NCBI GenBank assembly: GCA_958430865.1
Contig: CAUDNR010002291.1
Coordinates: 24,971-88,970, forward strand
Length of the DNA stretch: 64,000 nucleotides
Reading direction: 5' to 3'
Origin: Entrophospora sp. SA101
Lineage: Eukaryota > Glomeromycota > Glomeromycetes > Entrophosporales > Entrophosporaceae
Under the pieces are notes generated by a model. It had not been told where the DNA came from and made no database searches. It saw nothing but the letters and a program-made list of their open reading frames with translations. This document shows positions 1,208 through 44,111 of the stretch, piece by piece (position 1 is the stretch's first letter; the number at the start of each line of letters is the position of its first letter). The position numbers and the translations under genes were made by a program.

Positions 1208-1455
1208 CTAGTTTTGTCACAGCATTGCCCACTTATTAAATTTGTTAAGACCACTATCAACTCTAATCTAAAGTGACCAGGATTTTCAGCCACTCTTGTA
1301 TCTTTGAAAGATATTCAAATTTTTGCTTCTGATACCCAAGGTCTGTTACATTTCGGCGGCTTTAACGCCGGAAATTATCGTTCCCGTGTTACAAGCATAC
1401 AATAGTAATAGTAATAGTATTTTTTGTGGCACAATTGAATTTTTTTAAAAAAAAA

Positions 1456-7919: not shown

Positions 7920-8026
7920 TTGGTAATGGCGATTTAGGTATTTCCCTTCTTATGTCAAAAAAAAAAAGATCTTGTATTTTTTTGTACTATATAATTAAAT
8001 TAAAAAAAACAGACTTATTTTTAAAA

Positions 8027-8028
<2 letters not shown>

Positions 8029-8062
<34 letters not shown>
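8029..8062. repeat. AT dinucleotide microsatellite
   Basis: A run of alternating A and T about 34 bp long lies in the interval between the convergent RPA2 and RPS20 3' ends. The same run is mirrored at 44116-44149. Confidence 0.9.
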
Positions 8063-8066
<4 letters not shown>

Positions 8067-8158
8067 TTGATTGATTGATTTAAACAATGTTTTGTTTTTT
8101 TACAAATAAATGAATTTTAATTTAATCATTATTTTGTTTTTTCGAATAATTAAAATTT

Positions 8159-8754
8159 TCAAGAAGCAATAGTCACTTCAACTTCAACACCAGGTTCGAT
8201 AGAAATCGAAGTCTAAAGAAGAATGAGGGAAAGGGAAGAGGCAAAGGAAAAAAAGTAGAGGAATAAGAGACAAAAATAAAAAAATTTAATTATTACATAA
8301 AAATTCATACTAAAAATAAATAACTTACGATCTGTTTAACGATTTCACTTGGGCTATGTAAATCAATCAATCTTTTATGGATTCTCATTTCATATCTATC
8401 CCAAGTTTTACTACCCTCACCACAAGGAGTTTTACGTGTAGTAATACGTAAAACTTTAGTTGGCAAACGTACAGGTCCTTTCACACGTAATTGTTTATCT
8501 TTTGCTCTGTTTATCAAATCTGTGCATACTTTTTCTAAAGCTTTGACTTTCCGTGAAGTTAAAGTTATACGAATACGATGAACCTGTCAACAAAAAAGTT
8601 TTAATTAATTTGAGGTAATAATAATCTATTTGATGAAAGTGTTGATATAAAATTTAAATTTTTTTTAATCTAATTTATCAAATTTGCCATTATCTACTAC
8701 CTTTGGAGCTTCGTCGATGTAATCGTCTTTACCTTTTGATGTATTATAACTCAT
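8159..8754 (-). CDS. RPS20: 40S ribosomal protein uS10 (Rps20)
   Basis: Three exons (8754-8701, 8583-8329, 8212-8159, minus strand) encode 120 aa. The sequence runs [18 protein letters not shown], then [54 protein letters not shown], and ends [12 protein letters not shown]. This is the full-length eukaryotic uS10 pattern, a component of the small-subunit head. The start is 124 bp from the divergent mS37 gene, so both may share a promoter. Introns are GT-AG, the first directly after the lineage-variable N-terminus. Confidence 0.97.
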
Positions 8755-8878
8755 AGTTATTTAAAAGATATTTTTATTAATAAAATTTTAAAAAAAAATT
8801 TTTTTTTTTAACAATCGAAAAAAAAATAAAAAGGAAAAGATCATCGATAAAAAAATTTTTTTTTGATTTATTTTTATT
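8755..8878. promoter_or_regulatory. Shared divergent promoter of RPS20 and mS37 genes
   Basis: The 124 bp between the two start codons consists largely of A and T homopolymer runs. A cytosolic and a mitochondrial ribosomal protein gene diverge from it. No TATA box or factor site is identifiable; the promoter role is inferred from spacing alone. Confidence 0.5.
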
Positions 8879-9201
8879 ATGAAAATTACAAAGCTTCGGG
8901 CAAAACCAAAAAAACTTGAACAATTAGGTCCATGTACACCTGAAGTAGCAGCATTATTGACTTGTTGGGCCAATAATACAATGAATTCTTCTGCTTGTAT
9001 ACAAAATGTGCAAGCACTTTCTAATTGCATGCGTAATGTGGTGAGTAAACGATCATTTATATTTTATTAAAATCTATTATTGAAAATTAATCTATTCATC
9101 AAATTTTATATATAAATACACATGTGTATATTTAGCCAAGAAAAACGAAACCTCCCAATACTATCAATTATCATCTTTCAAGACTTGGTAAATTATTATG
9201 A
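8879..9201 (+). CDS. MRP10: Mitochondrial small-ribosomal-subunit protein mS37 (Mrp10/CHCHD1)
   Basis: Two exons (8879-9040, 9136-9201) encode 75 aa. A basic N-terminus (MKITKLRAKPKKL) precedes a twin CX9C arrangement (C-TPEVAALLT-C, then C-IQNVQALSN-C), the disulfide-bonded CHCH fold. The C-terminus, PNTINYHLSRLGKLL, matches the NINYH...RL ending of yeast Mrp10. The protein is a structural part of the mitochondrial small ribosomal subunit, and CHCH proteins are normally oxidised by Mia40 on import. The exon junction falls just after CMRNV. Confidence 0.85.
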
Positions 9202-9314
9202 ATCGATTTAATCTTTTTAGAATATTAATAAATGAATGATTAATGATGATGATGATTGGCCGATAAAAATTTTGTATCAAAAAAAATATTAACTAAAAAA
9301 ATAATATAAATAAA

Positions 9315-10124
9315 ATGTTTTTTAAAAATATTATTAAATCAATTTATCCAAAAAATTTAATTCACCCAAGAAATTTAATTTATCCAAAAAGAATATTTAC
9401 GAACAATCCATCATTATTGATTTTTATTAATATTAACAACTATATTACTAATAGTCACAGTCACAATCATAGTCTGTATTATAATTATAATACAGTAGCA
9501 ATCAATGAGAATAGAGAGGAGAAGGAAAAACAAGTTAAAGTGAGTAATTATGAGAACGAGAACGAGGAAAAGAAAAAAAGTTGTGTTGATGAAGATGAAA
9601 GAGAAAAGAAGAATTCTAGAAAGAGAAGAGAAGAAAAAAGAAATCAATTACTTAAAGAACAGAGAAAACAATATTATATTGATAATTATGTTGATGTGAA
9701 TTTTGATCTTTTAAAAGGAAGTTAACATAGAAAATTTATTCTGTTAACTTTAATAAATAATAAATGTATATTAATTTATTAATTTTATTAATTTTCATAG
9801 ATTTTCCCAAATGGTTATATGGAATTAGAATGCATAGATATGTAAAAAATTTTGAAAATATGAAATGGGAAGAGATTGTTGAATTGGATTCTGAGGGATT
9901 AGAACAATTAGGAATTGAAGAACATTTTGATAGGAAAAAATTGTTAAAAGAATTTAGAAATATTAGAAATACCATATATGTGTTGGTAAGTGTTTGTCCC
10001 TTTAATATTCACATTATTTAATATTATTATTGTACTAGTAGCAACATGCTATTATATTATTAACAATATTTTTGGTTATATATAGTCATTATATGATAAT
10101 AGAAATGGCGAGGAACCTTTATAA
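9315..10124 (+). CDS. SAM-domain protein, Vts1/Smaug-like
   Basis: Three exons (9315-9720, 9801-9985, 10086-10124) encode 209 aa. The N-terminus is basic and Asn-rich (MFFKNIIKSIYPKNLIHPRN), possibly a mitochondrial presequence. A charged Lys/Glu stretch (about residues 60-120) follows. A SAM domain (about residues 136-195) is spread over exons 1-2: FPKWLYGIRMHRYVKNFE, WEEIVELDSEGLEQLGI, RKKLLKEFRNIR. The WL..LRLH.Y...F pattern resembles SAM domains of the Vts1/Smaug RNA-binding family, but the mitochondrial IGR/mS41 family has a related fold, so the function is open. It lies tail to tail with the flippase gene. Confidence 0.65.
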
Positions 10125-10316
10125 TCCCTAAAATGGAATTTTTTAATTAATCAATTTATTGTCTATAATTTCTAATATTACAATTAATTACAAAAAATAA
10201 AATTAATTTATAAATATAGCAAATTAAATAAAAACACTATATTCCAAAAAAAAAGGATTATCTATGTAACTAATAATCCCTTCTTATCATCACCACTATT
10301 ACCACCACCACTAATA

Positions 10317-13300
10317 TTATTCTACAAATTCGACATGAATTGTAGGTGGTGATATCTTTTCTTTAGGTTTTCTCTTTGGTGATTCATTTGCTACTTCTCT
10401 TGTAATTATTGAATGTTTTTCCAATTTTTCTTTTTTTCTAATTTGTCTCGCCAAATCCAAATTATCTGGATACCACCATTGTTTAACGAATGTTATAATA
10501 TATCTTGGTAACAATGACAACCAAATTACGAATAATAATCCAAACCAAAATATCGGCTCACTGAACAACTGTGCACCAATTCCATATATTGGACTATCCA
10601 CAAACATCCCGTAAATTGTAACGAACGCAAATACTGAAAAAATTTCTACGACTAAAGATGCCCAAGTAAAAAATGTCCAATGGTAAGTATTATAGCTAAC
10701 AAACAGATTTGCTATCACTATCACTGAAACTGCTACTGCTGTAGAAAATTCAATTGGACCAGCTGCCGCTCCTTCGATTGTCACCACATTTTCGGACAAT
10801 ATATATATAAAGTGATGGATGAAATATACAACTAACGATTGCCAAATTCCATCAAGAAAATAGATTGTAAACAGGAATTTCGAGTATCTTTTTTGTTTAA
10901 TGCCCAATATATAAATACTTGGATATCGCAAACAATACGATTTACTGACCGATTGGTCCATTGCACCTAATACAATTACAGGTGCGACTGTAAATATCAT
11001 GTTGTAAAGTTGTACAAAACTATAATCGTAAAATATATTTCCTGAAAATCTAATATTAATGATTCAATTAATTAGTGCTGATTAATAAACTATTAATATC
11101 ATTCAATTACGAAAACACTTACAGGCAAAATATTTGATACCATAATACAGGAAATACCCATATCACATTCTTATAAAAGAAATTCAATATCATTTCAGAA
11201 ATTCTCAAGTAATCCCAATGGCCATGTACTAATAATAAATTTCCAAGAAAACGAAATTGTGGCATAGAATAATCAGCTGCCATTGATGCTTGAACTCCTA
11301 TAAAATATTTATATGTGAGATATTTAGCAAACTAAATTTTCCATCCGGATATTATAATAATAATAAGTATTATTTTACCTTCTTGTCCAGATATTCCAAT
11401 ACCAACATTTGCTGCTTGAATCATACTTACATCATTAGCACCATCTCCGATGGCCAAAGTTGTAGTCCTTTTACCTGTTCTTATTAGCTCTACAACAAAA
11501 GCTTTTTGTAAAGGACTTACACGACAACATATCACTGAATGAAAAGCCTCTGATAATGATATCAATTTGTTTCTAGCACTATCGTCATTTAATAAATGTG
11601 CCAAAGATGCACCATCAATTATTAAAGCATGTTGTACATTTTGCATATTATCATTATTATCATCATTAAGATCATCTTCATAATCATTATTATTATTGAC
11701 TTCTTGCATCTGTTGATTTTGTTGTTGCCCATTAGGTGTCGCAATATTGTTTCCAAGTAAGGAAGCCACTACATCATCTAATTGCTTCATTACGCTATCT
11801 TTTTTAGATCCTCTTATAATCCATAATCTCATTTCTTTTGTTAATAGTTGAGCTGCAAATCCAATATTAATTGCAGTCTCTAGCTTATCACCAGTCAACA
11901 CCCAAACTTTAATTCCTGCCTCTCTTAATGACGTAATACATTCAGGCACTCCTTCTTGGAGTTTATCCTCGATTGCTGTTGCACCTAACAAAGTTAAATC
12001 CTTTTCTATTTCTTCAGAAATTTGGTCAATTTTCTGTGATCGATTTTCTAAAGATGTCGATGCCTCATTGTATTTTTGTGACCATGTTTGATAATGCGAT
12101 TCATCTATTTTACGATATGCCAAGGTCAATGTACGAAGTCCTAAATAATATTAATGGTTTTATTAAAAAAAAAAATAACGATAATAACGATTTAAAGAAA
12201 TTTATATTTATAATTTTAAAAGTTACCATAATTAGAAAAAACATCAATATCATTGGAAGTTTTTTCGATTAAATCATCTTGCCCAGGAGCCAATAGTTCA
12301 AAAATGACGTTATCAGCACCTTTACAAAACAAAAGGATCTCGCTACCTAATTCTTCTGGACTTTTAACAATAACACTCATTCTTTTACGAGTAGAATTGA
12401 ATTGTAATATGTTGAGGATTTGGTAGGTATATTCTTTACCGAAAATATCGATTGTGATAGAATCAGTAGACCTACCCAAGAATACAAATCCAAGATTTTT
12501 AGCTGCCGAGACAAGAGCTGCCTCATCAGGCGATTCAGCTTTATATATAAGATTTTTTTCTAGTGATTTGTCAATTGGAATTGCTTTAATGGTACCAGGA
12601 TTTGATGGGCCAACTAGATTTGTAACTGAATCAAGAGCTTTCAATGATGGTAGTATACTATTAATATTAATAAATGATTCTCTGACTTTTCTCTTTGCTT
12701 GATAAATATATGAACCATTTTCATCATCATTATTATTCACATTATTATCATTATTATTATCATTGACATTTATGTTTTCTTCACTACTAAAATTTGATTC
12801 TTGATCTATTTTAGTATCATTATTATCGTTATTAGTATCGTTATTATCATTGTTATTATCATTGACATTATCATTGCCATCATTATTATTATCAGAATCA
12901 ACAACTACAGTATGGCAAATTGCCAATAAGGTGAAAAATTTTGTAATCAAGCCTGCTCTATCTATCAAATCTTGATGATGACTGTCATCACCACTGCTAC
13001 TGCCGCCAATGTTATCGTCATTGATTTCATATTCAATTTTACTATCGTTATAATTATCTTTTTTTTGAGCTCTAAGATCTCTAAATAATTCAGGATCAGC
13101 AAATGACAAGAAATTGGAATCGGTACTTGAATATTTTGGTTTAAATGTTTTTGTTAACTCTCGTAAATAATCATTAAAAATTTGATCTTTAGATGACTTG
13201 TTATTATCGTCATCACCATCAACAACATCAACCTGACTTTGTATCATTTCTTTTCCTCTTTCAGCATCTGTTTTATCACCCCAACCATTTTTACCATATA

Positions 13301-15356
13301 TTTTAGCACCAATAGAACATTGCCTGAATTCCATTATGTTACGTGTGAGTGTACCTGTTTTATCAGAAAATATATATTCTATTTGTCCTAGATCATCTGA
13401 TAGATTCCACTATTGATTTTGTGATTAAAAATTTGGATTAAAATATGTAGAACTTTTTTAAAGAAAAATAATTAATATACTTGCAGATTTTGGAACACAT
13501 GAAGCCTGAGAATCTTCATCCCACATATCAAGATCATTATAAATAAAAAATGCCTAATTCGATCCATAAATATTTATATATAAAATATTTTTTTAAATAA
13601 AATATAATTAATCAATCAATCAACCAATCAACTAATTACCTGAACTATTCTCACAAATTCTATTGAAATGTATAATGAGATTGGAATAATATTTTGAAAA
13701 ATAATTAAACTTGCCCTGTTAAAATATAATTTTATTTTTAAAATTTAAATAATTATTTACTTTTTTTTTTTTTAAAAAAAAAATAAGAACAACATACCAA
13801 AAAGTGACAAATGAAGCCAATTCAATTGAGTCTCTATTTGAATCTAATCTTTCAACAGCATCAGGTACTTGATCTTTCAATACATAAGTTGATATAGCAC
13901 TTCCTATTGCGCAAGTTAACGCAAGCATAATAAGAATGATAAAATTTAAAATAACCTTTTGGAAAATAGGGGTAAGAATTAATTGTAAGATTAATATGAA
14001 TGTGTATATTTTAGATTTCAATAATTAATTGATTTATAATAAAATTACCTCATGATTCATTTCCTTCTCAATTCTACTACGTTTACTTGGAGTTTCGCCA
14101 GAATTAAGCATAATTTTTGTTTCAATGCCAGTAAAAATAGTAATTGCTATTACCCATTTTGTATTTCTAATAACATGAGCTCTTAACAGCAAATTATTTA
14201 CATCTAAAGGTACTATTCTTTTTTCTTCGTCAATAGCTTCTTCTTCTTGTATTTCACCTTGTTGCACCGATTTATTTTGAATTAATACAAGTTTCGCACT
14301 GTAAGAATACAAATTAGAATTTGGAGCTTCTGATTCAATATAAAATTTCAGTTGTGTACAATCTTTAGCACTGTTAATGATATCTTTTGTATCAGGCACA
14401 CATCTACGAGGTTTTAGATTAGTTTCACCGTCAAGATCTTTAGTTTCAACATAACAAGTTCCTGACTGTTCTGATGTTGATAAAATTATTGAATCAGCAG
14501 GTACAACATCTCCATTCCTAAGAAATATGAAATCACCAACACGAACATTTCTCCATGTAGTTTTTTTAAACAATGGCTGACCATCTATAGTATTTGACGG
14601 TTCTGATGGTGGAGATTCTTCATCAACACCTTCTAGCCGATCATTATCATCATTATCTATTTGTTGTTCATTGTCATTATTATTTTGCTCGATTTGATCA
14701 ATTTGTCGTGTATTATCATCATCATAATTATTGTTGATTGATCGTTTTTGACTTTTGTCGGATTTAAAGAATAATTTATACAATATTTTTTCCCAAGCAG
14801 TAATTAATTTTTCTCGAGGATAATTTACATTATAAAAATTTTGCAATACATAACAAGTATCACTATTGAATTTCTTGTCTATTTCATGTCTATTTCTATC
14901 CTCGATAGCATCTTTCATAGCAGTGAAAAAGACTACAGTTGATAAAGGGAGAACAGTCAAAATGGGGTTGTTTGTTGCAAGTTGTGGTAAAAGTCCAAGT
15001 ATGGCCATGAATAAAAAATACATATTCGCAGCTTTACGAAACTGTTCAAATAAATTTTTTGGTAAAAAAGTCCAAATTGTATATTTCGAGGTTACTATTT
15101 TATTTGTCACATATTTAATTTTTGGATTCCCTTTATGATCTATGTCGGTTTTTGGCAATTCTAAATTAGCATGCACTTTACGTTCTTTTTTACTTGCTTT
15201 TCTTTCCTTAATTTTTGATTTTTTTCTCTTGGTCTGTTTTTTGGAAACCTTTTTAGCTTCATTATTGATAGACTTATTATTAGAATTAGTAGCAGTAGTT
15301 GTGTTTATATTAGAATTATCGTTATCGTTATCATTAAATTTAAAAATCGATGGCAT
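10317..15356 (-). CDS. P4-type ATPase (phospholipid flippase), Dnf-like
   Basis: Eight exons on the minus strand sum to 4464 nt (1487 aa); exon positions are given with the mirror copy at 36822. The protein has a disordered basic N-terminus, TM1-2 (about residues 110-155), the dephosphorylation loop DGETNLK (about 308), the phosphorylation motif DKTGTLT (Asp about 553), KGADN (about 900), TGDKLETA and GDGANDVSMIQAANVGIGI (about 1163), and six C-terminal helices. Such enzymes move phospholipids from the outer to the inner leaflet, usually with a Cdc50 partner. Within the nucleotide-binding domain an Asn/Asp-rich insert (about residues 700-765) is unusual. One intron has a GC donor. Confidence 0.93.
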
Positions 15357-16152
15357 GATAAAAAAGTGAATATAAATGATCTTTACATTAATATTAATAA
15401 TGAAATTTTTGAATTATTAACACGCATGGATATAATGAGCATAGTGAGTGAACATTTATATTGGTTGGTAGTACTCGTGTCAATCACTTTGTATTAGTAT
15501 GTATGTCACAATAAGGGGACCTCGGAATAGATTCTGTCTATCCCGTCTTTATTGTATATTATTTTTTAGGAAGTTTGCGTCACAAATACCCAAAATGTTA
15601 CAATGATGTTATTTAACGGATTATCTAAAAATAAAAGATGCAGTGCAGATCGTCTATACCAAGGTTGGCTATGATACCGATTCATTGATGGTCATTGGAC
15701 CCATTGGTGTAACAATTTAACCATATGGAGTAATTTATTAATAGCGTAGCAACATGAATTTTTTCCATTATTAATTTGACGGACAATCCTTTAAAATCGG
15801 TACCCACCGACCATCCTAAACCATTAAACATTCCCATTATCATCTTTAATATTTAAAAGTTTTTAAAAGTTCTTCAAGGTATTTTTTATTTACTCTATTT
15901 CCAACAATGTTGCAATCCTGTTTTTATATTCATTGTGTTTCACGTTTTATAGGGGGGGCGACATTTATATGTGTAGCATTTGTTGATAATATATCACCCT
16001 TTTCGGAAAGACATTTACCATATTTACATATTAATTAATTTCTTTTTTTGCCCAAATTGAAAAAGTGATTATGGAAATCATTTTGACTATAAATGAATGA
16101 GCATGAATAAACAAATTAACGAGTTCCGATCATTTATAATAAAGGTGATCTC

Positions 16153-16262
16153 ATATATACATGACCTTCTTAATTTGGATGTGGAACCTATAGAACATGA
16201 ATTAACAAGGGTTCACGCACATCATAGATGGCGCTTCCAAATTAGGAAGGTCCTGTATATAG
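16153..16262. mobile_element. Hairpin MITE-like element
   Basis: Arm one contains ACATGACCTTCTTAATTTGG; arm two ends the element with its near-perfect reverse complement (about 25 of 27 bp). About 55 bp separate the arms. No coding capacity, so a non-autonomous inverted-repeat element. Mirror copy 35916-36025. Confidence 0.55.
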
Positions 16263-16781
16263 GATTTTCCTTGTAATTTTTCGAGAAAATGGTTTTGGGA
16301 TTTAAACTATCAAATGCTTTTATCATTGACTGATTTTGGTTTCAATCAGATTATCTGTTTGTTACCGAATTTTATTGTATCATAATTCACTTTTAAAACA
16401 GATATTATTACCTTTAGATGCTCAACTAAAAACTTTGGAAATTTCAACTATTTCTTGTCTGAAAAAATCATGTGACTTTTTGATGCTTACCCAAAATTTT
16501 ACCATCTAACTAATATACTAATATGACGATTCTCCGGGTTCTTCTGTTCAACTTCACTAAGCACTTTATCTTCTTTAGAGAACTATACCATATCAGACAA
16601 CATTTCTTCGTCTTTGTAAAAAAATAAATTGTTTTTCCAAAAAAAAAAAAATCAATCGCGTCAACAATATAAAAAAACCAATAGGGGATTTCTTGTACAA
16701 CCCATATAAAAATCAATTCATTTTCATTTGGATCAAAATCTTAATCTTGAACAAATAAATAGATGATCAACCTGTCAGAGC

Positions 16782-16934
16782 CAGGGTTGGCAAATTGACT
16801 GGTCCATTGAGAATTGTGTACTTTGGACTGATCCATTGCCATTAATAAATACTAAATATGGTTAATGGTTACATTAATGGGCTCAATAGATCACCAATGG
16901 ACCACCAATGGACCACATATTTGCCAACCTTGGT
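16782..16934. mobile_element. Inverted-repeat element with GGTTGGCAAAT ends
   Basis: It starts with CAGGGTTGGCAAAT and ends with the complementary ATTTGCCAACCTTG; GGTCCATTG-type motifs repeat inside both ends. A related end (CCAAGGTTGGC) occurs near 15660, so the sequence is part of a dispersed family. Confidence 0.45.
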
Positions 16935-17305
16935 CAGAGCTCCTAAATTATATCAAAAGTATAGATACTTCGAGTTTCACGAAACCAATTGTCTCAATTG
17001 ATCTATTTTTAATTTTGAAGAATCTTTATGAAATGGTATATCACATATTATTAATGAATAAATCCATAATGAAACAAATAATGATAATAATACCGATAAT
17101 AACAATCACTTTGAGGTTATTGACAATAATGACATTGATATCAACAATATTGAGATGACTGATAATAATAGCAATCAATCAATTCATAATAATTGAATTG
17201 AAATAAATAACAATTCACAATGTCATTGAAGAAAAAGGTGGTTGGTCACACCATGAAATAAATATCCTAGTAGAATTTATTTTAGACAAAAAAATTGAAA
17301 TGAGA

Positions 17306-17451
17306 AAACTCAATCACAGTCAACCCCCTCTAAGTGCAACCCTCCTTGAGAACATATCACTATTTCTCATGAATGTGCATTTAGAGAGGGTTTACATAGT
17401 GAGTGCATTTAGAAAGTGTGCACTTAGAGGGGGTTTACTGCAGTTGAGTTT
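17306..17451. mobile_element. Short pogo/Tigger-like MITE
   Basis: The core ends read CAGTCAACCCCCTCTAAGTG and, on the opposite strand from the other side, CAGTAAACCCCCTCTAAGTG; the similarity extends outward through AACTCAA. CAGT...ACTG ends with pyrimidine-rich AACCCCCTCT are typical of pogo/Tigger elements. No transposase is inside, and no clear TA duplication is visible. Confidence 0.55.
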
Positions 17452-17741
17452 ATATAGAACTAAAGATGCAATATTAAATAAGAGCAGAATAATCAAACGG
17501 CAAATAAGAAATTTATTTAATGTTTAGCACATTGCAAAACCTTCAAATAATTTTTTTTTCAATAATTCAAAATAAAATAAATTGATATTCGCATTATATT
17601 CAGTTGAGTTTATATAGAACTAAAGATGCGATATTAAATAAGAGCAGAATAATCAAATGGCAAATAAGAAATTTATTTAATGTTTAGCTCATTGCAAAAC
17701 TTTCAAATATATTTTTTTTTGATAATTCAAAATAAAATAAA
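17441..17741. repeat. 141-bp direct repeat, two units 160 bp apart
   Basis: Units at 17441-17581 and 17601-17741 both begin CAGTTGAGTTTATATAGAAC and share nearly all bases to AATAAAATAAA, with a few transitions. The first unit overlaps the right end of the preceding hairpin element. Confidence 0.85.
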
Positions 17742-17914
17742 ACGGGCATGCTGCAACAAAACCAGACAAAGTGAACATTGGTATAACCAAGAATTTCAGG
17801 GATCAAAATTTAGTAATGTGATTATTATTATTAAAATCTCCCATTCGTTCATTTGTTTGTTATCTTTGTTTTTTCCTTGATATATAGAATCACCTCTATA
17901 TAAAAATAGTTAAT

Positions 17915-18118
17915 ATGAAGCTAATTTACATTAGGTCTACTATGGAACCCAAGAATTATAGTACCATTAGAGGTATCCTGAAGAAAGAGCAAGGTGAAAT
18001 TGCTCCTTATATTTTCAAAATAAATGACACTCAAACACTGGAAATTTATCTAAAAAAAGAAAGGATTACTTATGAAATTTACCAAGAAGAAAGGAAAATA
18101 ATAAATGTTGGAAAATGA
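17915..18118 (+). CDS. Small ORF of unknown function, 67 aa
   Basis: The product starts MKLIYIRSTMEPKNYSTIRG and has mixed charged and beta-like composition with no Trp, so it does not test the genetic code. It converges on gene B, whose end lies 143 bp downstream. No Shine-Dalgarno sequence is clear. It is present identically at 34060-34263 on the minus strand. Unknown; possibly cargo of the surrounding element. Confidence 0.4.
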   Translation: MKLIYIRSTMEPKNYSTIRGILKKEQGEIAPYIFKINDTQTLEIYLKKERITYEIYQEERKIINVGK

Positions 18119-18260
18119 AAACATCATGATGATGCATTATTACCTAATAAAAAGCAAAAATCTTTAAAAGGAAAATAACTACCATTTCCTTTAATAGTTG
18201 GAATGAATTTCAATTTATAGAGAGGAAAATTATTTTCTTATTTTCAATCAAGATCATCTT

Positions 18261-18817
18261 TTAGTCTCTTTGACTTCAATTTGAGCAATTTGACCATTCT
18301 GTTGATCTTTTAATTTCCTTGTTTTCTTCTTCCAGATGATTAATTTTTTCTTCTAAACTTTTTATCTTATCTAATAACTCCTGTTTTTGCTTTTTACTTC
18401 ACTCTTCAGATTTTTCCTGAAACTTGGCTACTTCTTCTCTTTCTATTTTCAACCCCTCCTTGGCAGTTTTCAATTCCTTTTCAAGTTCCTTTGTTTTCTT
18501 TGCTAAGCGAGCTTCAATAGTTTGAGAAGAAGATGATTGAATTGGTCTTTCTTTTTGAAGACTACAAAAGCAATATCCTCTGTTTCTTTTTAGTCTACCA
18601 CATTCCTCACAATAAGGAAGTGTGCCATTTTCTAAATCTTTCTTACAATTATCACAGATAGAAGCAATATCAACACATTTATCTTTCTTATCATAAGCCA
18701 CTATCTCATAATTAGCAGGAGTGAAAGTAAGTTCTTGTCAAAGGGAACATCTAACAAACAATAATTACAACTCCGTGTTTTATTTTCTGCTTCTAAAATT
18801 CTGTATTCCAATTTCAT
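18261..18817 (-). CDS. Gene B: zinc-ribbon/coiled-coil protein (code 4, one frameshift)
   Basis: From ATG 18817 the protein begins MKLEYRILEAENKTRSCNYC. A one-base frameshift near 18740 moves it into the frame carrying CDNCKKDLENGTLPYCEECG, RLKRNRGYCFC and a long coiled coil ending EKSEE-W-SKKQKQ, where W is TGA at 18399. Cysteine pairs (CNYC, CDNC, CEEC, CFC) suggest a zinc ribbon. The start lies 2 nt after the stop of gene A, bacterial-operon spacing. A diverged homologue sits at 33336 with the same architecture. The C-terminal end is uncertain because the coiled-coil frame shifts again near the end. Confidence 0.55.
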
Positions 18818-18819
18818 AA

Positions 18820-19458
18820 TTACCTGTTATTTTGTAAAATGTAAGTGTTGAATTTTTCTCTTGCTTGCTCTTTTACTCTATTTGCTAATTGTTGTAATTT
18901 AATCTTTTTCTCTTTTGCTAGCCTTGTTGTTTTGAACTGTAATTTTTTAAGTTTGCTTGGTTTACACTTCTTTCTTAATTCTTGGTTCTCTATCATCAAA
19001 TCAAATATAACATTACCTTTATCCATGCCTAGATTGAAAAGATTTCTATCATGATATTCTTTGGACTTGTCTAGTGCTTTCAAGTTCATTTCAACTTCTA
19101 TGTCTACTCTTTCTTCTAAATTCTCCATTATGTTATCTTTTTCTTCCACATTTGCTTCTAATTCCTTAATTTTTTCAAGCAATTCATTCCTCTCTTTCTC
19201 TAAACTAGATGTTAGTGACTGTAGACTTTTAACTTCTTTATCAGCTTCTACTCATCAATTCATTGCATTTTTATGCATGTAAATAAGGAGAACAAAACTT
19301 TTTCTAAATTTTTTGTCTTCTAAGTGTTTTAATGCATAAGGGCGAAGTCAAAAATAATCTATAACTGCTCTTATCTCTGTTTCATCTGGATTTTGGTTTA
19401 AACCACCAATTAGTTCTCTTATTTCTTCTTCAGTCAAAATGTTGTTTTGGTTTGTCAT
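18820..19458 (-). CDS. Gene A: coiled-coil protein with TGA Trp codons
   Basis: Read with TGA as Trp, a 212-aa frame runs from ATG 19458 (MTNQNNILTEEEIRELIGGL) to TAA 18820. Three TGA codons fall at 19348 (DYF-W-LRPYAL) and 19252/19255 (AMN-WW-VEA), and no TGG is used. The N-terminal 75 residues look globular; residues 80-212 are a Lys/Glu coiled coil ending NTYILQNNR. AAAGG lies about 8 nt upstream of the ATG, resembling a Shine-Dalgarno site. With the standard code only the part from 19182 would be open. The equivalent gene at 32724 shares the QNNR/QKNR ending. Confidence 0.55.
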
Positions 19459-19658
19459 GATTTTACCTTTTTTTTTTTTTTTTTTATTCTTTTAATATAC
19501 TTATATCCTTTTTATGCATATTAAGTATATAAATTATTTTAGTGCTTTTTTACTTTAAAACTAACAATATTTGTCAAAAGATTAAACTTATTAAACTTAA
19601 TGACAGCAAACAAATTAATGGGTGACAAAGTCATGGAAGTGATTTTATTCCAAATATT

Positions 19659-21414
19659 TTATTTGTTGCCAGTATAGAATGGTCTTGGACAAGTAATATC
19701 TTTGTATTCATCCTTTACAAATGGGCGAATATTATTATAAAGATACTCTTGTCTTTTGTAATCCAAAGGAGGAGGTGTTAATACTAAAATGGATAAAGCT
19801 CTAATTTCTTCAAAAATATCTGCTCTCTTGGATTTCAATAAATTGAATTCAGTAAAAGGTCCATTAGCAACTTCTTGAACTTTGACCATACCAAGATTAG
19901 GTGCTTCAAAAAGAAAATGTTGATATTTGTATACTTGGTAATTTCTTGAAATAAATTCCCAAAATTGCTTTAATATCTAAATATTGAAAGCCTTTTCCAC
20001 TTTCATAACATTGAGCCTTATTCAATCCTGCTGGACTAGACTTTTTTATCACTTCAACCACATGATCTAGACAATCTACTCTCGTTCTTCTATAGAGTTT
20101 TTTAATCATGCCAAAATTACCATCACATTTGAATTTAGTATGTCCTGGAATCATGAAATTCAATTCAATACTTTCATAATAACCACAAATTACTAAATAT
20201 AAATAAAATCAAATAGTAGTGTTATTTTTATTCTGTCCTCCAGCATTATCACAAGTAATCTTTAAATGCTTTTCACCTTTATTCAATTTCTTAATTCCAT
20301 CAAAAATCATGCTAAGAGTGCCATTGGGTCCTTTGCCTATAATTTCATCTTCATTAAGAACATAATTAGTTTGTTCCCTTACTGCTTCATCTTGAATACC
20401 AAATAAATGAACTTTACATGGACTAAGATAATAAATCTTACTTACTTGTTGATCAGAATGGGGCACATGAACATTTTGGGCTCAATCATAACTATAATGT
20501 GCAGTGGCATCAATACTGCAATATGGTGTTTTACCCTTTGAATAATTTTGATTAATCAATTTTCTTTGTTCTTCAGCTAATTTAGTATTTTTATTGTAAT
20601 AATTTCTTTCTAATCTTGCCTTGGACAAATGTTCTTTGAATCTTTTGAGCAGATCTTTGGCTTCTTCCTCTTGGCGAGCATTGTAATGTAAACCATTTCG
20701 AAAATGTTGACAAGTATCACACAAGTCAGTCCTTGGACTCATAATTTGAATTTCTGGTGTCAATTGATGTCATAGTTTTCTGAAAGCATCATATTTTAAG
20801 GATTTCAAATTACTATCTTCTTCCAGACCAGCCAGAAAATCTCTATACACTGATTTATAACTCATTTCAGCTGGTAAAAAGATAACTGACTGAGTTATTC
20901 TATTAACACTTCTGCCTGGGCTTGGTAATCCATGAACTTCTGCATAATTTTCTAGAAAATTCCTTACCACCTCAGCAACATTTTTGTCAATCACTATTTA
21001 GTTTTCCATTGAGGCATCCTTTTAATATTGCCATGAACTCTTGCTAGAAGACCATTTTTTATCAAATGATTTCTAATGTTTCCAAAATAAGTTCTACCAA
21101 TTCCTAACATATTGAGATAAGTTTCTTGACAAAGAGGTGTATTGTGATTCAGTGATAGAAAGTTCTTTTATTAGATCTAGTTTTCTTTTTAAGGCATCTG
21201 CTAGCACTTGTTAATCCCCCATCCATGGCTTTAAGTTGAGCCATTAAAAATATGTCTTGTTCTACTTTAGAAAGAGCTTGAAAAGATTCTCTTAATTCTG
21301 CAATTGTTCTTTGGGAATTCTTGAAGAACAACCACAATTACAACCTTTTTCTAAAAAATCAATGGCTTTTTGATATTCATTAGAACCATTATATTTATTA
21401 TTATTACCTTTCAT
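19659..21414 (-). pseudogene. Transposase-like protein with DNAGGQNKNN core, TGA = Trp
   Basis: Fragments joined across frameshifts cover about 585 residues: a Cys cluster (GCNCGC), KKKTRSNKRTFYH, a long middle with PRTDLCDTC, CSIDATAHYSYD, CDNAGGQNKNN, and FMIPGHTKFKCDGNFGMIKK. I know the DN-GQNKNN plus PGHTKF pattern from an RNase-H-like transposase-related family (I believe DUF7869). Trp is TGA at 20209 (TTI-W-FYL), 20482 (SYD-W-AQN), 20770 (RKL-W-HQL) and 21149 (YH-W); one Trp is TGG (PQWK). Apparent one-base deletions near 19905, 20995, 21150 and 21300 break the frame, several in A-rich runs. Confidence 0.6.
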
Positions 21415-21503
21415 ATACACTTATCCCTATATATATAATTTTATGTTCACTTTGTAGTTTTTTATAAAATTGAAGGAGAGTATATGAATGGAATTAAACT
21501 TAG

Positions 21504-21662
21504 ATGACCAATTGAATAGTTTTAGGTAAATGATTTAAAAGATATAATTGTGATGTTGAAAAATTTGATCAATTGGCTCCAATGAAAAATAATTATGGCA
21601 TCATCAATAATCAAAATGGGAAAAGACAACTTAAAAAGCAAACAATAAATGAATATTTGTAA
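21504..21662 (+). CDS. Small ORF open only with TGA = Trp, 52 aa
   Basis: With TGA as Trp the frame reads MTN-W-IVLGK-W-FKRYNCDVEKF and ends QTINEYL-TAA. Both Trp codons are TGA (21513, 21531). A perfect AAGGAG (21473-21478) lies 5 nt before an ATG at 21484 in another frame, which opens only 11 codons, so a frameshift may separate start and body. It lies just outside the inverted repeat. Unknown function. Confidence 0.35.
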
Positions 21663-24099
21663 TATTTTACTTCATCAATAACAAGTTAATAAAAAATTGA
21701 TTGCCTTTACCAATGAATTTTTCCACACATTGTTGATCATAAACATAGAAAATACTATTATTGTAGAAAAATTATATCAATTTTTGAAAACCTAAGTTAA
21801 AAATTAATTTGATATAATGATTATTACATTAAGGTAAATAACTTGATTTGTAAAATGCAACCTACAAGAGCAATGAAAGATGTGACTCTAAATTAATATA
21901 AAAGGATTTTAAATTGCATACAAAAGTGCACCAATGTATTCAAATAATTGCTTGAATGACCTTGAAACATGCATATAATTGTGTTATTGGTCCAGCCTTG
22001 TATTCCATGCAATCGCTCTGGCAATTTTTTATTTTATATATTTTCAATATAATTAATTATATATCTTGGATAGAATAAAAAATAAAATAGACAAACACAA
22101 TATTGCTATTTAATACTTTCCTCATATATGAATTCCTTTGTTCCCACATACATCACAATGATTATTCAATACATTTGATATCATCATTGACATAACCAAC
22201 AATTGCATCACCCAGGTAGTAATGATAACAAGGCCATGCATAAACAAAACTCTTAACAATGCGTGTCTACCCAGATCTCTGGGATTCACAATAATAAATT
22301 ATTCTTCCTGATTATCAATTATTGTTGCTCATGAATAATAAATCTGATGTTGATCACAAGTGTCAGATTTAATTAAAACTTTCCTATCACAAACAAGCAA
22401 GCGCCGTGCAATTAAGCACCATTCAGCACCATGGAATTTTTTTTTCCACAGGTGAAAGCGACTTGAACAAGTTGGAAGGCTTTGGACAAAACTTTTCTTA
22501 TCTCCTCAGACCAGGCTTGGCTGTTATCATATGGGCAATGATCACTGATAGCTGGCATTTGTGTGATGATTGCTGCATGTTATACCTCTCCAGTACAAAG
22601 TTGGCATTAAGACTGGCTTGAAAATTCTCCAACTTGGAAGTTGCAACCTGGGTTTTTGTTTTGGTTTTTCCCTGGATTCAGAGTTTTGAGTCCTGGGTTG
22701 CTGTAGTTTTTATGAAAAGAAAAGCATTAATATTTAACAATTAATTATTTAAATGTTTATTTTGTTGAAAAAAAATATAACTGATAGTGTACATTTTCTG
22801 TGCTTAACATCCATGTGACCCTAAGTCTGGACAAAAGATCCCTTTCTATGAGTTTGGCTGGTATATCTCAAAGGTGTCTCCTGTCTTGTCAGTGGCATGC
22901 CTGCTCACCAATAACCCTACCCCCATTTGAAAAACAAATTCAGTTGGTCAAACAAAAATTAAAGAGAAACAGAAAATTTATGGGAATGATTAATTTATAA
23001 CATAACATACCAAACAAAATCCGAGCCATTTTTATAACTTTTTCTTGTTGGCCATATTGCTGACAAAGATGTATATAATCGTGTAATAATTTTAACCTAC
23101 ATGACAGAGGACTGGTTGGGCAAAAACCCAACCCAGTCCCCTACTCAAAATTATTAAATTAATTAGTATCAAAAAAACAGAGAATTTATGAAAGTGATTA
23201 CACAAAACAAACACTATTTTACAACTTTCCTCTTAACATCAGAGCCCAAATGCAATTTCAGGGTCACAAACCCTGCTCTGGATTGTGACCTCCTACACTT
23301 GGAATGAGTTGCAGATTCTCTTAATATTCCTTCAGAGTTGCAACATCTTGGCCACAGAGCCATCATTGCCCTAGAGGTGGGATCATTGCAGGTGACTTTT
23401 CGACCAGCGTGCCAGCAGCCATCTCTGGTCTGGGAAGATTAGTGAAAGCGTCATTGACGATCGATGCAGTCTCGGTCGGTAAACTCCAGGGCCATGCGCC
23501 AACCCCCTGGAATTCTGTAGCATCATTATATCCATAGGACGGAGCTGGTCAGATTAGCCTTGTGAACATGAGGAACATGTGTGAATGACTGTAAAGTGTT
23601 CAAAGCGATGTGCGTGCTTCAACACCTGCCAATCTTCGATAATCAAATGTCGCATTTCGAAATGTTTCTTTTTCAACAGTCTGCTGCCTTGACATCATCT
23701 TGTAATTATATATTAATAATAATAGTATTATTAATGATTACGAAAAGCAAAATATTACCAATGAAAATCTTGTAATTACCCAGCAAGATCTGTTCCGCGT
23801 TTTGATTCCAATTAAAATATTTATAAGCTAAAATAAAAATATCAATCAATACAAATAAAAAATAGTACCTCTGGTTAGTTATTAAAACGTATTCTTTAGG
23901 AGACCCAAACCAAACAAAACAACAACACTCACGTTTTGTCACCTTGGACTCTGTCAAAAAATAAATTGTTTTTATTGTTTTTCCAAAAAAAATCAATTCG
24001 CGTCTGACCTACCAAATAAAAAAAACCAATAGGATAAATAATTAATGTGTACGCATCGATCATTCACAAACTTTATTTTTTTTATAAATTTTTGAAATC
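21663..24099. other. Intergenic, mosaic of repeats
   Basis: Around 21690-21795 a plus-strand reading with TGA as Trp (KIDCLYQ-W-IFPHIVDHKHRK) is open but has no start. From about 22400 to 23600 base composition becomes less AT-rich with no convincing ORF. The stretch 23940-24040 repeats part of the 16600-16700 sequence. No intact gene seen. Confidence 0.5.
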
Positions 24100-30113: not shown

Positions 30114-31115
30114 TTATTTTTTTTTAATATCACGAAATTCACCTTCAATTATTGGAGGTGATTCATCTTGATCATTGCTTTTTTCGAACGGTGGAATATT
30201 GTTGATATCTTCCGAATGTAATAAAATTTCTTTATTGGTATTTGGCCAATAAATAGTAATTTTTTCCAATATTGTGTTATTATCTTTAACAGCCCCAGTT
30301 ACTTGAATACGTGCTTTATCGTTATTAGCCTTACTTGCAGCCCAGTATTTGATATTTATCATGTCTTGTTTATAATTTTTTCCAATTAAAGAACTTGTAT
30401 ACATAGAATCCAAAGCTGTGAACGTTATTCCTCCTGAGTTAGTAATATATCCATCAAATGATGTCTTTAAATTTTTATAATTATTTTCGTAACCTCTTTG
30501 AACCATTGCCATAGAATCATAGTATACTTGATTAAGTGGAGAATTCTTATAATCTCCCGTTTGTCTAAATACAGGATCATCAAACAAAGCTTTATTGAAT
30601 TCTACCCATGGCGAAAGAGCATTACGCCTTCTAAATAGTTGAGATGGTGCTTCACTGGTTATGTCAACTTTATATTTTGTTGTTTTATTTGGCCAAATTG
30701 CATCCAGAATCCTTCTTAATAATCTATAAGTTCCTATAGCAATTATTATATTTACAATAAACATAAACGTTGATTTTAAGATCCAATAAACTATGATCGC
30801 ACCACTAAATGCCATAATTTTTTTATTAAGTGGTGATGATGATGACGATATTTCTATAATACTTTTAAAATTCTTGGTTGTAATAAATCTAATAATGTTA
30901 TGATGATGACCTGCACTGTCAATAACAAAGTTATTATTCCTAATAAGAATTGATGGAAATTCAACTTTTTTTTTGAATCTTGGATAATTCTCTAAGCTCT
31001 TTGATCCAACAATTTTGTTATTATTAAACAAACAATGATATTTTTGTCTGTGTATAAAAAAATTATTATTACCATTATTAATACTATTCAACAATAATTT
31101 TTGTTTGAAGAACAA
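30114..31115 (-). CDS. Putative mitochondrial membrane protein, unknown, 333 aa
   Basis: A single open frame. Residues 1-90 are basic, Asn/Ser-rich and poor in acids, suggesting a mitochondrial presequence. Two adjacent hydrophobic segments follow (about residues 100-140: KIMAFSGAIIVYWILK, FMFIVNIIIAIGTYRLL). The soluble C-terminal domain includes RRRNALSPWVEFNKALFDDP and WAASKANNDKARIQVTGAV, and ends in acidic and Lys-rich residues. No family recognised. The Ala/Arg-rich IQVTGAV...ITIYWPN part looks like a small beta domain such as those of inner-membrane assembly factors. A further 5' exon cannot be excluded. Confidence 0.6.
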   Translation of the reverse strand: MFFKQKLLLNSINNGNNNFFIHRQKYHCLFNNNKIVGSKSLENYPRFKKKVEFPSILIRNNNFVIDSAGHHHNIIRFITTKNFKSIIEISSSSSPLNKKIMAFSGAIIVYWILKSTFMFIVNIIIAIGTYRLLRRILDAIWPNKTTKYKVDITSEAPSQLFRRRNALSPWVEFNKALFDDPVFRQTGDYKNSPLNQVYYDSMAMVQRGYENNYKNLKTSFDGYITNSGGITFTALDSMYTSSLIGKNYKQDMINIKYWAASKANNDKARIQVTGAVKDNNTILEKITIYWPNTNKEILLHSEDINNIPPFEKSNDQDESPPIIEGEFRDIKKK

Positions 31116-32575: not shown

Positions 32576-32723
32576 CTTTCAGTATATAAAGCACCCAAAG
32601 AATGTTTATGCAAAGTTTCACGCATTTTTGTTTGTGTAATTTTTATGTTACATTAATGAGTATTTTAAAGTACTTTTTCAATTAATTTTGTTAGTTGCAC
32701 AATATAAATATGATCGTCACTTT

Positions 32724-33329
32724 ATGTCACATTTAGTGTTAAAATCGAAAGTCCACTATGCTAATGAAACTAGGGAATGAGCTAAAAACTGTAAAAGAGT
32801 TTGATTTGACAATATTACCATTGAAGAGATGTTAGATGGATTTATTGATAGTTCTAATGAGTTAAGTTCAGAATGATTAGACTATGTTGGAAAATTAAGC
32901 AGAACCAATAGTAAACTTTATGAACAAAAGAGAGACTATGAAAAGAAAATTGAGGAGTTAGAGGCAAAAAAGGAGGAATTGGAAGCAAGAGTAGAAGAGT
33001 TAGATGACGGAGTATGAATGGAGTGAGAAGAGGCTGAAAAAGCACTAAATAAAGCCATGGAATGGAGAAAATGACAAATGTTTGAAACTTTGTTGAAGCA
33101 TGATGCTGCAATGGGCAAACTTCAAGACCAAATAGATTTATTGGAAAATAATTTAGCTGCTAAAAATCAGGAAATAAACTGAAAAGATTATTTAGCAACC
33201 AAAGAATTACCAGCTCTACCAAAACAACAAAAAGAAAGTAGATTATGTAAACTCAAAAAATTAGTAAATAAAGTAAAAGAAAAAACTAAAGAGAAGTTTC
33301 AGACTTTTATTGTTCAAAAGAACAGGTAA
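32724..33329 (+). CDS. Gene A': coiled-coil protein with seven TGA Trp codons
   Basis: With TGA as Trp the frame runs 201 aa from MSHLVLKSKVHYANETRE to FQTFIVQKNR-TAA. TGA falls at 32778, 32802, 32874, 33015, 33024, 33072 and 33180 (for example ETRE-W-AKNC, RK-W-QMFE); only one Trp is TGG. Residues 65-130 form a strong Glu/Lys coiled coil. With the standard code the stretch would be shattered. The start is uncertain, because the frame is open back to 32640. Gene B' begins 6 nt after the stop, the same layout as A-B on the left. Confidence 0.6.
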
Positions 33330-33335
33330 GCCAAT

Positions 33336-33917
33336 ATGAGATTAGAATATAGAATTCTGGAAATAGCCCAGGGAGATGAACAAGAGTGTAATTTCTGTTT
33401 TCTAGATTTTGATGACCCAACTCTCCTTAATTTCGATACTGCTCTTGCTACTCATCAAATGGTGGCTCATAATACTCCTGATGGTTATTCTGACATTGTC
33501 TTTATCTGTGGTGAATGTAAAAATGATTATGATAATAATACTCTTCCATGATGTGAGAAATGTGGTAGGTTAAAAAGGAATAGAAACAGATGTTTTTGTA
33601 GTCATTTAAAAGCTAAATCAACTAAACCACTTTCTGACAAAGAACTACTTTCACAAGCTTTCAGTTTTCGCCTAGAAAATAAAACTAGAGAACTAGAAAA
33701 AGAGTTATCAATTACCAAAGAAGAATTAAAAATTGAAAGAGAAGAAATAGCCAAGTTTCAGGAAAAATCTGAAGAGTGAAGTAAAAAGCAAAAACAGGAG
33801 TTATTAGATAAGATAAAAAGTTTAGAAGAAAAAATTAATCATCTGGAAGAAGAAAACAAGGAAATTAAAAGATCAACAGAATGGTCAAATTGCTCAAATT
33901 GAAGTCAAAGAGACTAA
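33336..33917 (+). CDS. Gene B': zinc-ribbon/coiled-coil protein (code 4)
   Basis: With TGA as Trp, 193 aa from MRLEYRILEIAQGDEQECNFC. Cys pairs CNFC, CGEC, CEKC and CFC match gene B, and NNTLP-W-CEKCGRLKRNRN is the counterpart of GTLPYCEECGRLKRNRG. TGA codons lie at 33549, 33777 and 33900. A coiled coil covers about residues 110-175. Similarity to gene B is clear but moderate up to 33747, and exact from 33748 onward, where the inverted-repeat arm starts. A frameshift near the last 15 codons would give an alternative ending. Confidence 0.6.
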
Positions 33918-34059
33918 AAGATGATCTTGATTGAAAATAAGAAAATAATTTTCCTCTCTATAAATTGAAATTCATTCCAACTATTAAAGGAAATGGTAGT
34001 TATTTTCCTTTTAAAGATTTTTGCTTTTTATTAGGTAATAATGCATCATCATGATGTTT

Positions 34060-34263
34060 TCATTTTCCAACATTTATTATTTTCCTTTCTTCTTGGTAAA
34101 TTTCATAAGTAATCCTTTCTTTTTTTAGATAAATTTCCAGTGTTTGAGTGTCATTTATTTTGAAAATATAAGGAGCAATTTCACCTTGCTCTTTCTTCAG
34201 GATACCTCTAATGGTACTATAATTCTTGGGTTCCATAGTAGACCTAATGTAAATTAGCTTCAT
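34060..34263 (-). CDS. Small ORF of unknown function, mirror copy
   Basis: Identical to 17915-18118. It faces the C-terminus of gene B'. The terminal-repeat 13-mer lies 137 bp beyond its start at 34400-34412. Confidence 0.4.
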   Translation of the reverse strand: MKLIYIRSTMEPKNYSTIRGILKKEQGEIAPYIFKINDTQTLEIYLKKERITYEIYQEERKIINVGK

Positions 34264-34412
34264 ATTAACTATTTTTATATAGAGGTGATTCTATATATCA
34301 AGGAAAAAACAAAGATAACAAACAAATGAACGAATGGGAGATTTTAATAATAATAATCACATTACTAAATTTTGATCCCTGAAATTCTTGGTTATACCAA
34401 TGTTCACTTTGT

Positions 34413-36821
34413 CTGGTTTTGTTGCAGCATGCCCGTTTTATTTTATTTTGAATTATCAAAAAAAAATATATTTGAAAGTTTTGCAATGAGCTAAACATTA
34501 AATAAATTTCTTATTTGCCATTTGATTATTCTGCTCTTATTTAATATCGCATCTTTAGTTCTATATAAACTCAACTGAATATAATGCGAATATCAATTTA
34601 TTTTATTTTGAATTATTGAAAAAAAAATTATTTGAAGGTTTTGCAATGTGCTAAACATTAAATAAATTTCTTATTTGCCGTTTGATTATTCTGCTCTTAT
34701 TTAATATTGCATCTTTAGTTCTATATAAACTCAACTGCAGTAAACCCCCTCTAAGTGCACACTTTCTAAATGCACTCACTATGTAAACCCTCTCTAAATG
34801 CACATTCATGAGAAATAGTGATATGTTCTCAAGGAGGGTTGCACTTAGAGGGGGTTGACTGTGATTGAGTTTTCTCATTTCAATTTTTTTGTCTAAAATA
34901 AATTCTACTAGGATATTTATTTCATGGTGTGACCAACCACCTTTTTCTTCAATGACATTGTGAATTGTTATTTATTTCAATTCAATTATTATGAATTGAT
35001 TGATTGCTATTATTATCAGTCATCTCAATATTGTTGATATCAATGTCATTATTGTCAATAACCTCAAAGTGATTGTTATTATCGGTATTATTATCATTAT
35101 TTGTTTCATTATGGATTTATTCATTAATAATATGTGATATACCATTTCATAAAGATTCTTCAAAATTAAAAATAGATCAATTGAGACAATTGGTTTCGTG
35201 AAACTCGAAGTATCTATACTTTTGATATAATTTAGGAGCTCTGACCAAGGTTGGCAAATATGTGGTCCATTGGTGGTCCATTGGTGATCTATTGAGCCCA
35301 TTAATGTAACCATTAACCATATTTAGTATTTATTAATGGCAATGGATCAGTCCAAAGTACACAATTCTCAATGGACCAGTCAATTTGCCAACCCTGGCTC
35401 TGACAGGTTGATCATCTATTTATTTGTTCAAGATTAAGATTTTGATCCAAATGAAAATGAATTGATTTTTATATGGGTTGTACAAGAAATCCCCTATTGG
35501 TTTTTTTATATTGTTGACGCGATTGATTTTTTTTTTTTTGGAAAAACAATTTATTTTTTTACAAAGACGAAGAAATGTTGTCTGATATGGTATAGTTCTC
35601 TAAAGAAGATAAAGTGCTTAGTGAAGTTGAACAGAAGAACCCGGAGAATCGTCATATTAGTATATTAGTTAGATGGTAAAATTTTGGGTAAGCATCAAAA
35701 AGTCACATGATTTTTTCAGACAAGAAATAGTTGAAATTTCCAAAGTTTTTAGTTGAGCATCTAAAGGTAATAATATCTGTTTTAAAAGTGAATTATGATA
35801 CAATAAAATTCGGTAACAAACAGATAATCTGATTGAAACCAAAATCAGTCAATGATAAAAGCATTTGATAGTTTAAATCCCAAAACCATTTTCTCGAAAA
35901 ATTACAAGGAAAATCCTATATACAGGACCTTCCTAATTTGGAAGCGCCATCTATGATGTGCGTGAACCCTTGTTAATTCATGTTCTATAGGTTCCACATC
36001 CAAATTAAGAAGGTCATGTATATATGAGATCACCTTTATTATAAATGATCGGAACTCGTTAATTTGTTTATTCATGCTCATTCATTTATAGTCAAAATGA
36101 TTTCCATAATCACTTTTTCAATTTGGGCAAAAAAAGAAATTAATTAATATGTAAATATGGTAAATGTCTTTCCGAAAAGGGTGATATATTATCAACAAAT
36201 GCTACACATATAAATGTCGCCCCCCCTATAAAACGTGAAACACAATGAATATAAAAACAGGATTGCAACATTGTTGGAAATAGAGTAAATAAAAAATACC
36301 TTGAAGAACTTTTAAAAACTTTTAAATATTAAAGATGATAATGGGAATGTTTAATGGTTTAGGATGGTCGGTGGGTACCGATTTTAAAGGATTGTCCGTC
36401 AAATTAATAATGGAAAAAATTCATGTTGCTACGCTATTAATAAATTACTCCATATGGTTAAATTGTTACACCAATGGGTCCAATGACCATCAATGAATCG
36501 GTATCATAGCCAACCTTGGTATAGACGATCTGCACTGCATCTTTTATTTTTAGATAATCCGTTAAATAACATCATTGTAACATTTTGGGTATTTGTGACG
36601 CAAACTTCCTAAAAAATAATATACAATAAAGACGGGATAGACAGAATCTATTCCGAGGTCCCCTTATTGTGACATACATACTAATACAAAGTGATTGACA
36701 CGAGTACTACCAACCAATATAAATGTTCACTCACTATGCTCATTATATCCATGCGTGTTAATAATTCAAAAATTTCATTATTAATATTAATGTAAAGATC
36801 ATTTATATTCACTTTTTTATC
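34413..36821. other. Repeat-rich intergenic region of right arm
   Basis: Mirror of 15357-17765: direct-repeat pair at 34437-34737, pogo-like MITE 34727-34872, inverted-repeat element 35244-35396, dispersed repeat from about 35480, hairpin element 35916-36025, then the flippase promoter. Confidence 0.7.
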
Positions 36822-44019: not shown

Positions 44020-44111
44020 AAATTTTAATTATTCGAAAAAACAAAATAATGATTAAATTAAAATTCATTTATTTGTAAAAAAACAAAACATTGTTTAAAT
44101 CAATCAATCAA

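Follow-up and report, generated by a model that had tools for sequence, protein, structure and literature searches.

The window analysed here, a 64,000-nucleotide stretch of DNA from Entrophospora sp. SA101, contains between positions 17744 and ~21475 a decayed member of a DNA transposon family dispersed in the genome. The element carries a gene for a DUF7869 transposase plus the accessory genes A and B, and TGA behaves in it as an ordinary tryptophan codon. TGA and TGG are interchangeable at the conserved tryptophans of the element, as in genetic code 4; in the best copies, purifying selection acted on the transposase even as the two codons replaced each other freely. An initial annotation of this DNA had described a block of genes readable only with TGA as tryptophan; this is confirmed and holds more widely than was claimed, encompassing 114 listed transposase matches and 1280 termini in the genome. 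The explanation to which we lean, by a modest margin over doubt, is that the genes of the transposon are written in a code in which TGA specifies tryptophan, that its proteins were made in a compartment using code 4, most likely mycoplasma-related endobacteria (MRE; Candidatus Moeniiplasma and its relatives) resident in hyphae, and that copies entered fungal nuclei repeatedly.

The genome was searched with the 366-residue main frame of the window transposase; 112 of 1076 candidates were scored and 114 matches were listed, matches being pieces, such that one copy may be counted twice. At least one TGA is present in 111 of the 114 matches, and 61 are devoid of TAA and TAG. Among TAA/TAG-free matches, TGA occurs in 58/61 of the element type, compared with 3/27 of the standard-code relatives in the same genome. 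In the 20 genome-wide best-scoring transposase copies, one of which (L009) is the window copy, W220 and W316 are TGA in 20/20, while W93 (13 TGG, 6 TGA, 1 other), W141 (14 TGG, 5 TGA, 1 other) and W407 (13 TGG, 7 TGA) are mixed. With L009, the source of both "other" cells, set aside, 95/95 tryptophan cells in 19 copies are either TGA or TGG. On a tree built without the tryptophan columns concerned, at least 5 TGA/TGG changes took place at each of W93, W141 and W407, at least 15 in total. Tryptophan columns vary much as those of other A/G two-fold codons, and a lock holding W220 and W316 as TGA is unneeded, as all-A columns are common (Lys 15/33, Glu 5/14, Gln 7/13 and TTR-Leu 4/11). Gene B presents 41 TGA, 15 TGG and 19 TAA plus TAG in ~27 copies, its column W148 being TGA in 18, TGG in 1 and other in 4 of the copies read (window included). 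The gene A type of L012 displays 59 TGA, 9 TGG and 1 TAG in ~15 copies, and relatives of the window gene A in the genome have TGA at the same columns.

Pairwise medians for the best copies were 0.377 for synonymous (dS) and 0.061 for nonsynonymous (dN) divergence, with a ratio of 0.166, and the 12 closest pairs display dN/dS values of 0.12-0.26. TAA or TAG was observed 6 times in the 19 copies, compared with 64 (45-91) under neutral simulation over terminal branches, and tryptophan was lost in 0/95 cells, compared with 12.6 under neutrality. An origin from standard-code genes by hypermutation of TGG to TGA, already judged a poor explanation in the initial annotation, could draw on the AT-rich host and on the repeats, but the repeated TGA/TGG switches refute it unless the tree is badly wrong, and dN/dS is 0.17. 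In addition, the 114 listed matches total 274 TGA, 75 TAA and 19 TAG, while the standard-code clade totals 68 TGA, 28 TAG and 90 TAA in 68 matches. This clade initially numbered 83 listed matches, 15 of which were dropped as TGA-type copies (by contig and ~39% identity); one of the remaining 68 (C1414, 39% identity, with TAA and TAG) fits either clade. The same excess of TGA over TAG and the same dN/dS speak against a product of fungal repeat-induced point mutation, in which TGG would mainly become TAG amid general decay. TGA/TGG switching, low dN/dS, the contrast between 58/61 and 3/27 and the copy number thus argue against both hypermutation, which is left with a negligible probability, and one chimeric contig.

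The transposase was assigned to PF25273 (DUF7869) through a profile match of 57.2 bits (cut-off 26). Asp residues D171, D250 and D292, invariant in 35 aligned proteins, are candidate catalytic acidic residues; no solved structure related by sequence was found. Six of the 20 best copies (L010, L011, L012, L017, L021 and L026) cover 590/590 reference residues in one code 4 frame with no TAA or TAG. The window copy is broken by frameshifts, with 7 TAA/TAG within its misaligned N-terminal part, and 3 of the 4 TGA codons at 19897-20997 are tryptophan positions common to other copies. The features of this copy, and of an inverted copy found further along the window, are the following:

17744..17763, plus strand: left terminus, GGGCATGCTGCAACAAAACC; most copies seen start GGGG; 2 matches in the window, with 0 expected from shuffled sequences
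17766..17778, plus strand: left subterminal repeat ACAAAGTGAACAT, read in the sequence, with an inverted partner near the opposite end
17915..18175, plus strand: small convergent open reading frame (ORF), putative, with one TGA (code 4 frame 17888-18178)
18261..18764, minus strand: accessory gene B, with a zinc-ribbon-like N-terminal part and a coiled coil; 5' end frame-shifted here
18823..19458, minus strand: accessory gene A, 212 residues, coiled coil, 3 TGA and 0 TGG
19659..21414, minus strand: DUF7869 transposase gene, broken here; start at 21414 inferred by comparison with other copies
19659-19976, minus strand: C-terminal fragment of the transposase
19897-20997, minus strand: main frame of the transposase, code 4
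21104-21337, minus strand: N-terminal fragment of the transposase; the frames of the three fragments differ
21443..21455, minus strand: right subterminal repeat ACAAAGTGAACAT, the inverted partner of the left one
21504..21659, plus strand: 52-codon ORF upstream of the transposase, 2 TGA, coding doubtful
32706..33326, plus strand: gene A', next to the inverted arm and homologous to other A genes from ~32770 onward; 7 TGA and 1 TGG
33336..33914, plus strand: gene B', 193 codons, 3 TGA and 1 TGG; C-terminal end apparently frame-shifted
34415..34434, minus strand: left terminus of the inverted copy

The frames of A, B, A', B', the three transposase fragments and the ORF at 21504 together comprise 23 in-frame TGA and 5 TGG, where ~20 and ~2 had been counted initially, and not all of these are true tryptophan sites. 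Stretches similar to the ORF at 21504 occur in L011, L013 and L024. Gene B' starts 6 bp past the stop of gene A', and in 8 copies the start of gene B lies 1-6 bp past the stop of gene A. Across L010-L028, gene A differs strongly between copies with ~90% alike transposases, although its starts and ends are similar, a variation that suggests module exchange.

The left terminus, also written as GGGGCATRCTGC, yielded 1280 genome matches (631 + 649) at no more than 2 mismatches, compared with 0 for a reversed-pattern control. Thirty termini were read and revealed 29 distinct, mutually unrelated flanks with the same sharp boundary. While the left end is sharp, the right end differs between subfamilies: similarity to the window stops at 21425-21475 in 15/19 other best copies, extends to 21597-21764 in 3/19 and stops earlier in 1/19. 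Several copies have only ~40-75 bp past the terminus in common with others, and L065 presents a right-end-like motif 591 bp from its left end. A target-site duplication common to the copies was looked for and none was established; one copy, in C1532, displays a candidate 8-bp duplication, TTTAATAT. Just outside the left terminus in the window, positions 17441-17581 and 17601-17741 form a 141-bp direct repeat with 94% identity.

The abundance of the element replaces the chimeric contig suggested in the initial annotation by a transposon family, with listed matches on 100 contigs, and the copy number rules out a single integration as well. A broader assembly artefact, in which MRE repeats were misjoined into fungal contigs, might account for the structure of the window itself. 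Positions 1-18901 recur inverted at 33248-52170 with a 98.9% match, the arms presenting zero differences over 1001-18000, identical thus over 17 kb, and strong divergence beyond, inside the element. A' and B' have their left flank in common with A and B; B' lies inside the diverged arm end and A' mostly beyond it. The duplication is probably an assembly join at a repeat or a very recent duplication, and it leaves the genome-wide result unaffected. MRE reads are present in the library, and copy pairs look mosaic, with long stretches lacking any amino-acid change beside diverged ones. Against an artefact stand the 29 different flanks at one sharp boundary and the number of termini; in addition, frameshifts, TAA and TAG have built up in some copies, as happens to integrated DNA, and gene models of other arbuscular mycorrhizal fungi (AMF) display the same family. 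An artefact of this kind is very improbable.

The window is part of the 89-kb contig C1359 in a 101-Mb assembly of 2123 contigs, and a window gene at 30117-30815 (minus strand) matches, along 97% of its length and at 100% identity, a protein from Entrophospora sp. SA101, an arbuscular mycorrhizal fungus belonging to the glomeromycetes. The genes adjoining the element are split into exons and use TGG as tryptophan codon, as had been reported of the fungal neighbours; judged from motifs in their sequence, they resemble a P4-type ATPase and the second subunit of an RNA polymerase. The window copy is placed among fungal genes. Among the matches listed, four contigs (C1, C1061, C1181 and C1452) combine a TGA-type match with one to rve, and on C161 and C1061 a TGA-type match occurs together with a standard-code DUF7869 match. 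The outer flanks of 32 left ends contain short ORFs and have a median GC of 0.269; fungal pieces of the window, at 0.286, resemble them more closely than do six MRE pieces, at 0.29-0.44.

Endobacteria are represented in the same assembly. Three full bacterial 16S genes, judged Mollicutes-like, were located on contigs of 15, 127 and 107 kb; their loci, L079 (C1138), L080 (C293) and L081 (C923), represent co-assembled endobacteria. L079 is ~82% identical to L080 and L081, while the latter two loci are ~95% identical to each other. Genes near the 16S loci carry in-frame TGA, as do 20/24 matches to the PF00589 recombinase. MRE have been reported in 19/389 Mucoromycota assemblies, according to PMC11423566. 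Together with a relative of the transposase in a Moeniiplasma metagenome-assembled genome (MAG), the three 16S genes make plausible the endosymbiont link proposed initially, while the suggestion of a single piece of endosymbiont DNA is not supported.

On the simplest account, the transposon would have acquired its code in MRE. A eukaryotic DUF7869 transposon would have entered these bacteria, where its genes would have drifted to TGA codons and its proteins, made by ribosomes reading TGA as tryptophan, would be kept functional by selection. Copies would then have moved repeatedly into fungal nuclei by transposition, with no normal translation there; the route by which transposase or element DNA might reach the nucleus is speculative. 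Uninterrupted frames and a gap of 1-6 bp between A and B fit bacterial expression. Whether shortened copies were mobilised by a transposase encoded elsewhere is likewise speculative; if they moved as such, a transposase must have worked on them in trans inside the nucleus, derived from the endobacteria, rare nuclear read-through or nuclear recoding. A stronger form of this explanation, possible but on the doubtful side, is an ongoing trans-kingdom transposition, in which MRE-made transposase acts on host nuclear chromosomes, filled with more than 1000 element ends, and the code operates as a silencing switch in the nucleus; the TGA codons in its gene would confine production of the transposase to MRE.

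Several observations weigh against an MRE home. Copies were chosen by best score, which overstates selection for the family as a whole, 53/114 listed matches hold TAA or TAG, and the mosaic copy pairs point to likely gene conversion or assembly switching among copies. The GC content at third codon positions (GC3) is 0.175-0.208 in six copies of the element, similar to three fungal-coded sequences (0.14-0.25) and unlike two local MRE genes (0.28-0.30). No TGA-type match was found on 19 MRE contigs among the matches listed from 112/1076 candidates, although only ~0.9 was expected from the number of contigs, too few to decide; these comprise 17 PF00589 contigs (C1178, without TGA, was kept, while C496 and C936, without TGA, were dropped) and the 16S contigs. 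Similarly, exact-match left termini were found on 0/5 MRE contigs up to C434 among 100 termini listed (P = 0.35), which is too weak to decide.

Because of the fungus-like GC3 and since no local donor was seen, the option that the fungus itself translates a wholly nuclear family, through a nuclear tRNA-Trp(UCA) or an element-specific read-through, is kept open, if at a low probability. The many copies in the fungal assembly speak for it, and so do the constraint under which the closest copies differ and the lack of an MRE copy among the listed matches. In contrast, host exons and standard-code relatives use TGG, the close spacing of A and B in 8 copies is awkward for a scanning ribosome, and the strong TGA preference of one gene A type (59 TGA to 9 TGG) would be hard to accumulate under read-through. 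CTA after a stop codon is a read-through motif, but it follows 0/60 TGA codons in 20 copies.

A code 4 home other than the MRE chromosome, such as an MRE phage or plasmid, a DNA virus or fungal mitochondria, where TGA also encodes tryptophan, has the same code requirement and is in line with sampled MRE contigs lacking a listed copy. At the sensitivity used, no relative of the transposase was found in a plasmid collection, nor in GTDB genome contigs and IMG/VR when either the transposase or the Moeniiplasma protein served as query, the latter two scans needing shared short peptides; another carrier is improbable.

The genes of a eukaryotic transposon should be translatable by its host. More than 1000 termini, together with selection in a code that the nucleus is not known to use, call for a second compartment that supplies the nucleus or for a recoding so far overlooked, and the data suggest that mobile DNA crosses between fungus and endobacteria. 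If MRE are the source, transposition would carry endosymbiont DNA into the host on a large scale. DNA of this element may be misread in screens for gene transfer or for contamination by MRE, and gene models of AMF appear either to end at such TGA codons or to bypass them by splicing.

The closest database proteins derive from metagenomes (jgi, ena), Ambispora, Gigaspora, Diversispora and Geosiphon. Protein models break at the expected TGA: P0063 stops exactly one step ahead of W220, the region of W316 is missing from P0004 and P0015, the regions of both W220 and W316 are missing from P0012, and 4/29 aligned gene B relatives (P0113, P0117, P0174 and P0189) stop just before W148. Judging from such protein models, gene models of Geosiphon, Ambispora and Diversispora appear to be interrupted at the same tryptophan sites. 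The remaining database relatives cross these sites and would therefore have TGG there or have been called with code 4.

In the protein tree, the TGA type and its closest database relatives form one clade (SH-like 0.99, UFBoot 97), while other fungal-type proteins form a second (SH-like 0.82, UFBoot 97). Standard-code DUF7869 proteins of AMF, such as Rhizophagus GLOIN_2v1484099, L084 and L085, have the domain in common with the element, number ~600 residues and display the same conserved Asp and the motifs CDN..GQNKNN and GHTKF..D..FG.IK. They differ in presenting only ~34-40% identity to the element and, in the two read (L084 and L085, from the same genome), TGG at both W220 and W316. Fungal matches with TGG at the same sites, which had been regarded initially as a sign of later mutation, were found only in this distant clade. 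An exact-match terminus lies within 6 kb downstream of 0/9 standard-code and 3/23 TGA-type matches (termini listed, up to C434), a weak difference.

The Candidatus Moeniiplasma glomeromycotorum MAG protein I3273_02745 (P0032), of the same family, aligns to 55% of the query with 54% identity. It is shorter (329 residues), is encoded on a 124.8-kb MAG contig and is known here from the protein alone. Its grouping also limits the endobacterial explanation, as the node uniting the TGA type with the Moeniiplasma trio has SH-like 0.87 but UFBoot 53, and the trio itself, two members of which are metagenome proteins, has SH-like 0.996 and UFBoot 56.

Gene transfer from fungus to MRE was reportedly described by Naito and by Torres-Cortes in 2015. 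Such traffic between Mucoromycota and endobacteria is also treated in Longley 2023 (PMC10507103). The direction reported is from host to MRE, in contrast with the endobacterial-code DNA abundant in the host assembly here. The parts available of PMC11423566, PMC10507103, PMC10386755 and PMC5982333 make no mention of an endobacterial-code transposon in a nucleus. Code 4 transposons in fungal nuclei were not found in the literature searched, which is no proof of absence as subscription papers lay mostly outside the search; the same literature names neither DUF7869 nor Entrophospora together with SA101.

Two DUF7869 proteins, P0036 and P0068, are labelled as Nitrososphaeraceae archaeon MAG on contigs of ~2.5 kb and probably reflect fungal DNA that was binned with an archaeon. 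Finally, an extra repeat module lies beside the element at window positions 22041-23084; it is partly present also in L011, L026, L045, L049 and L050 and may be part of a longer version of the transposon.

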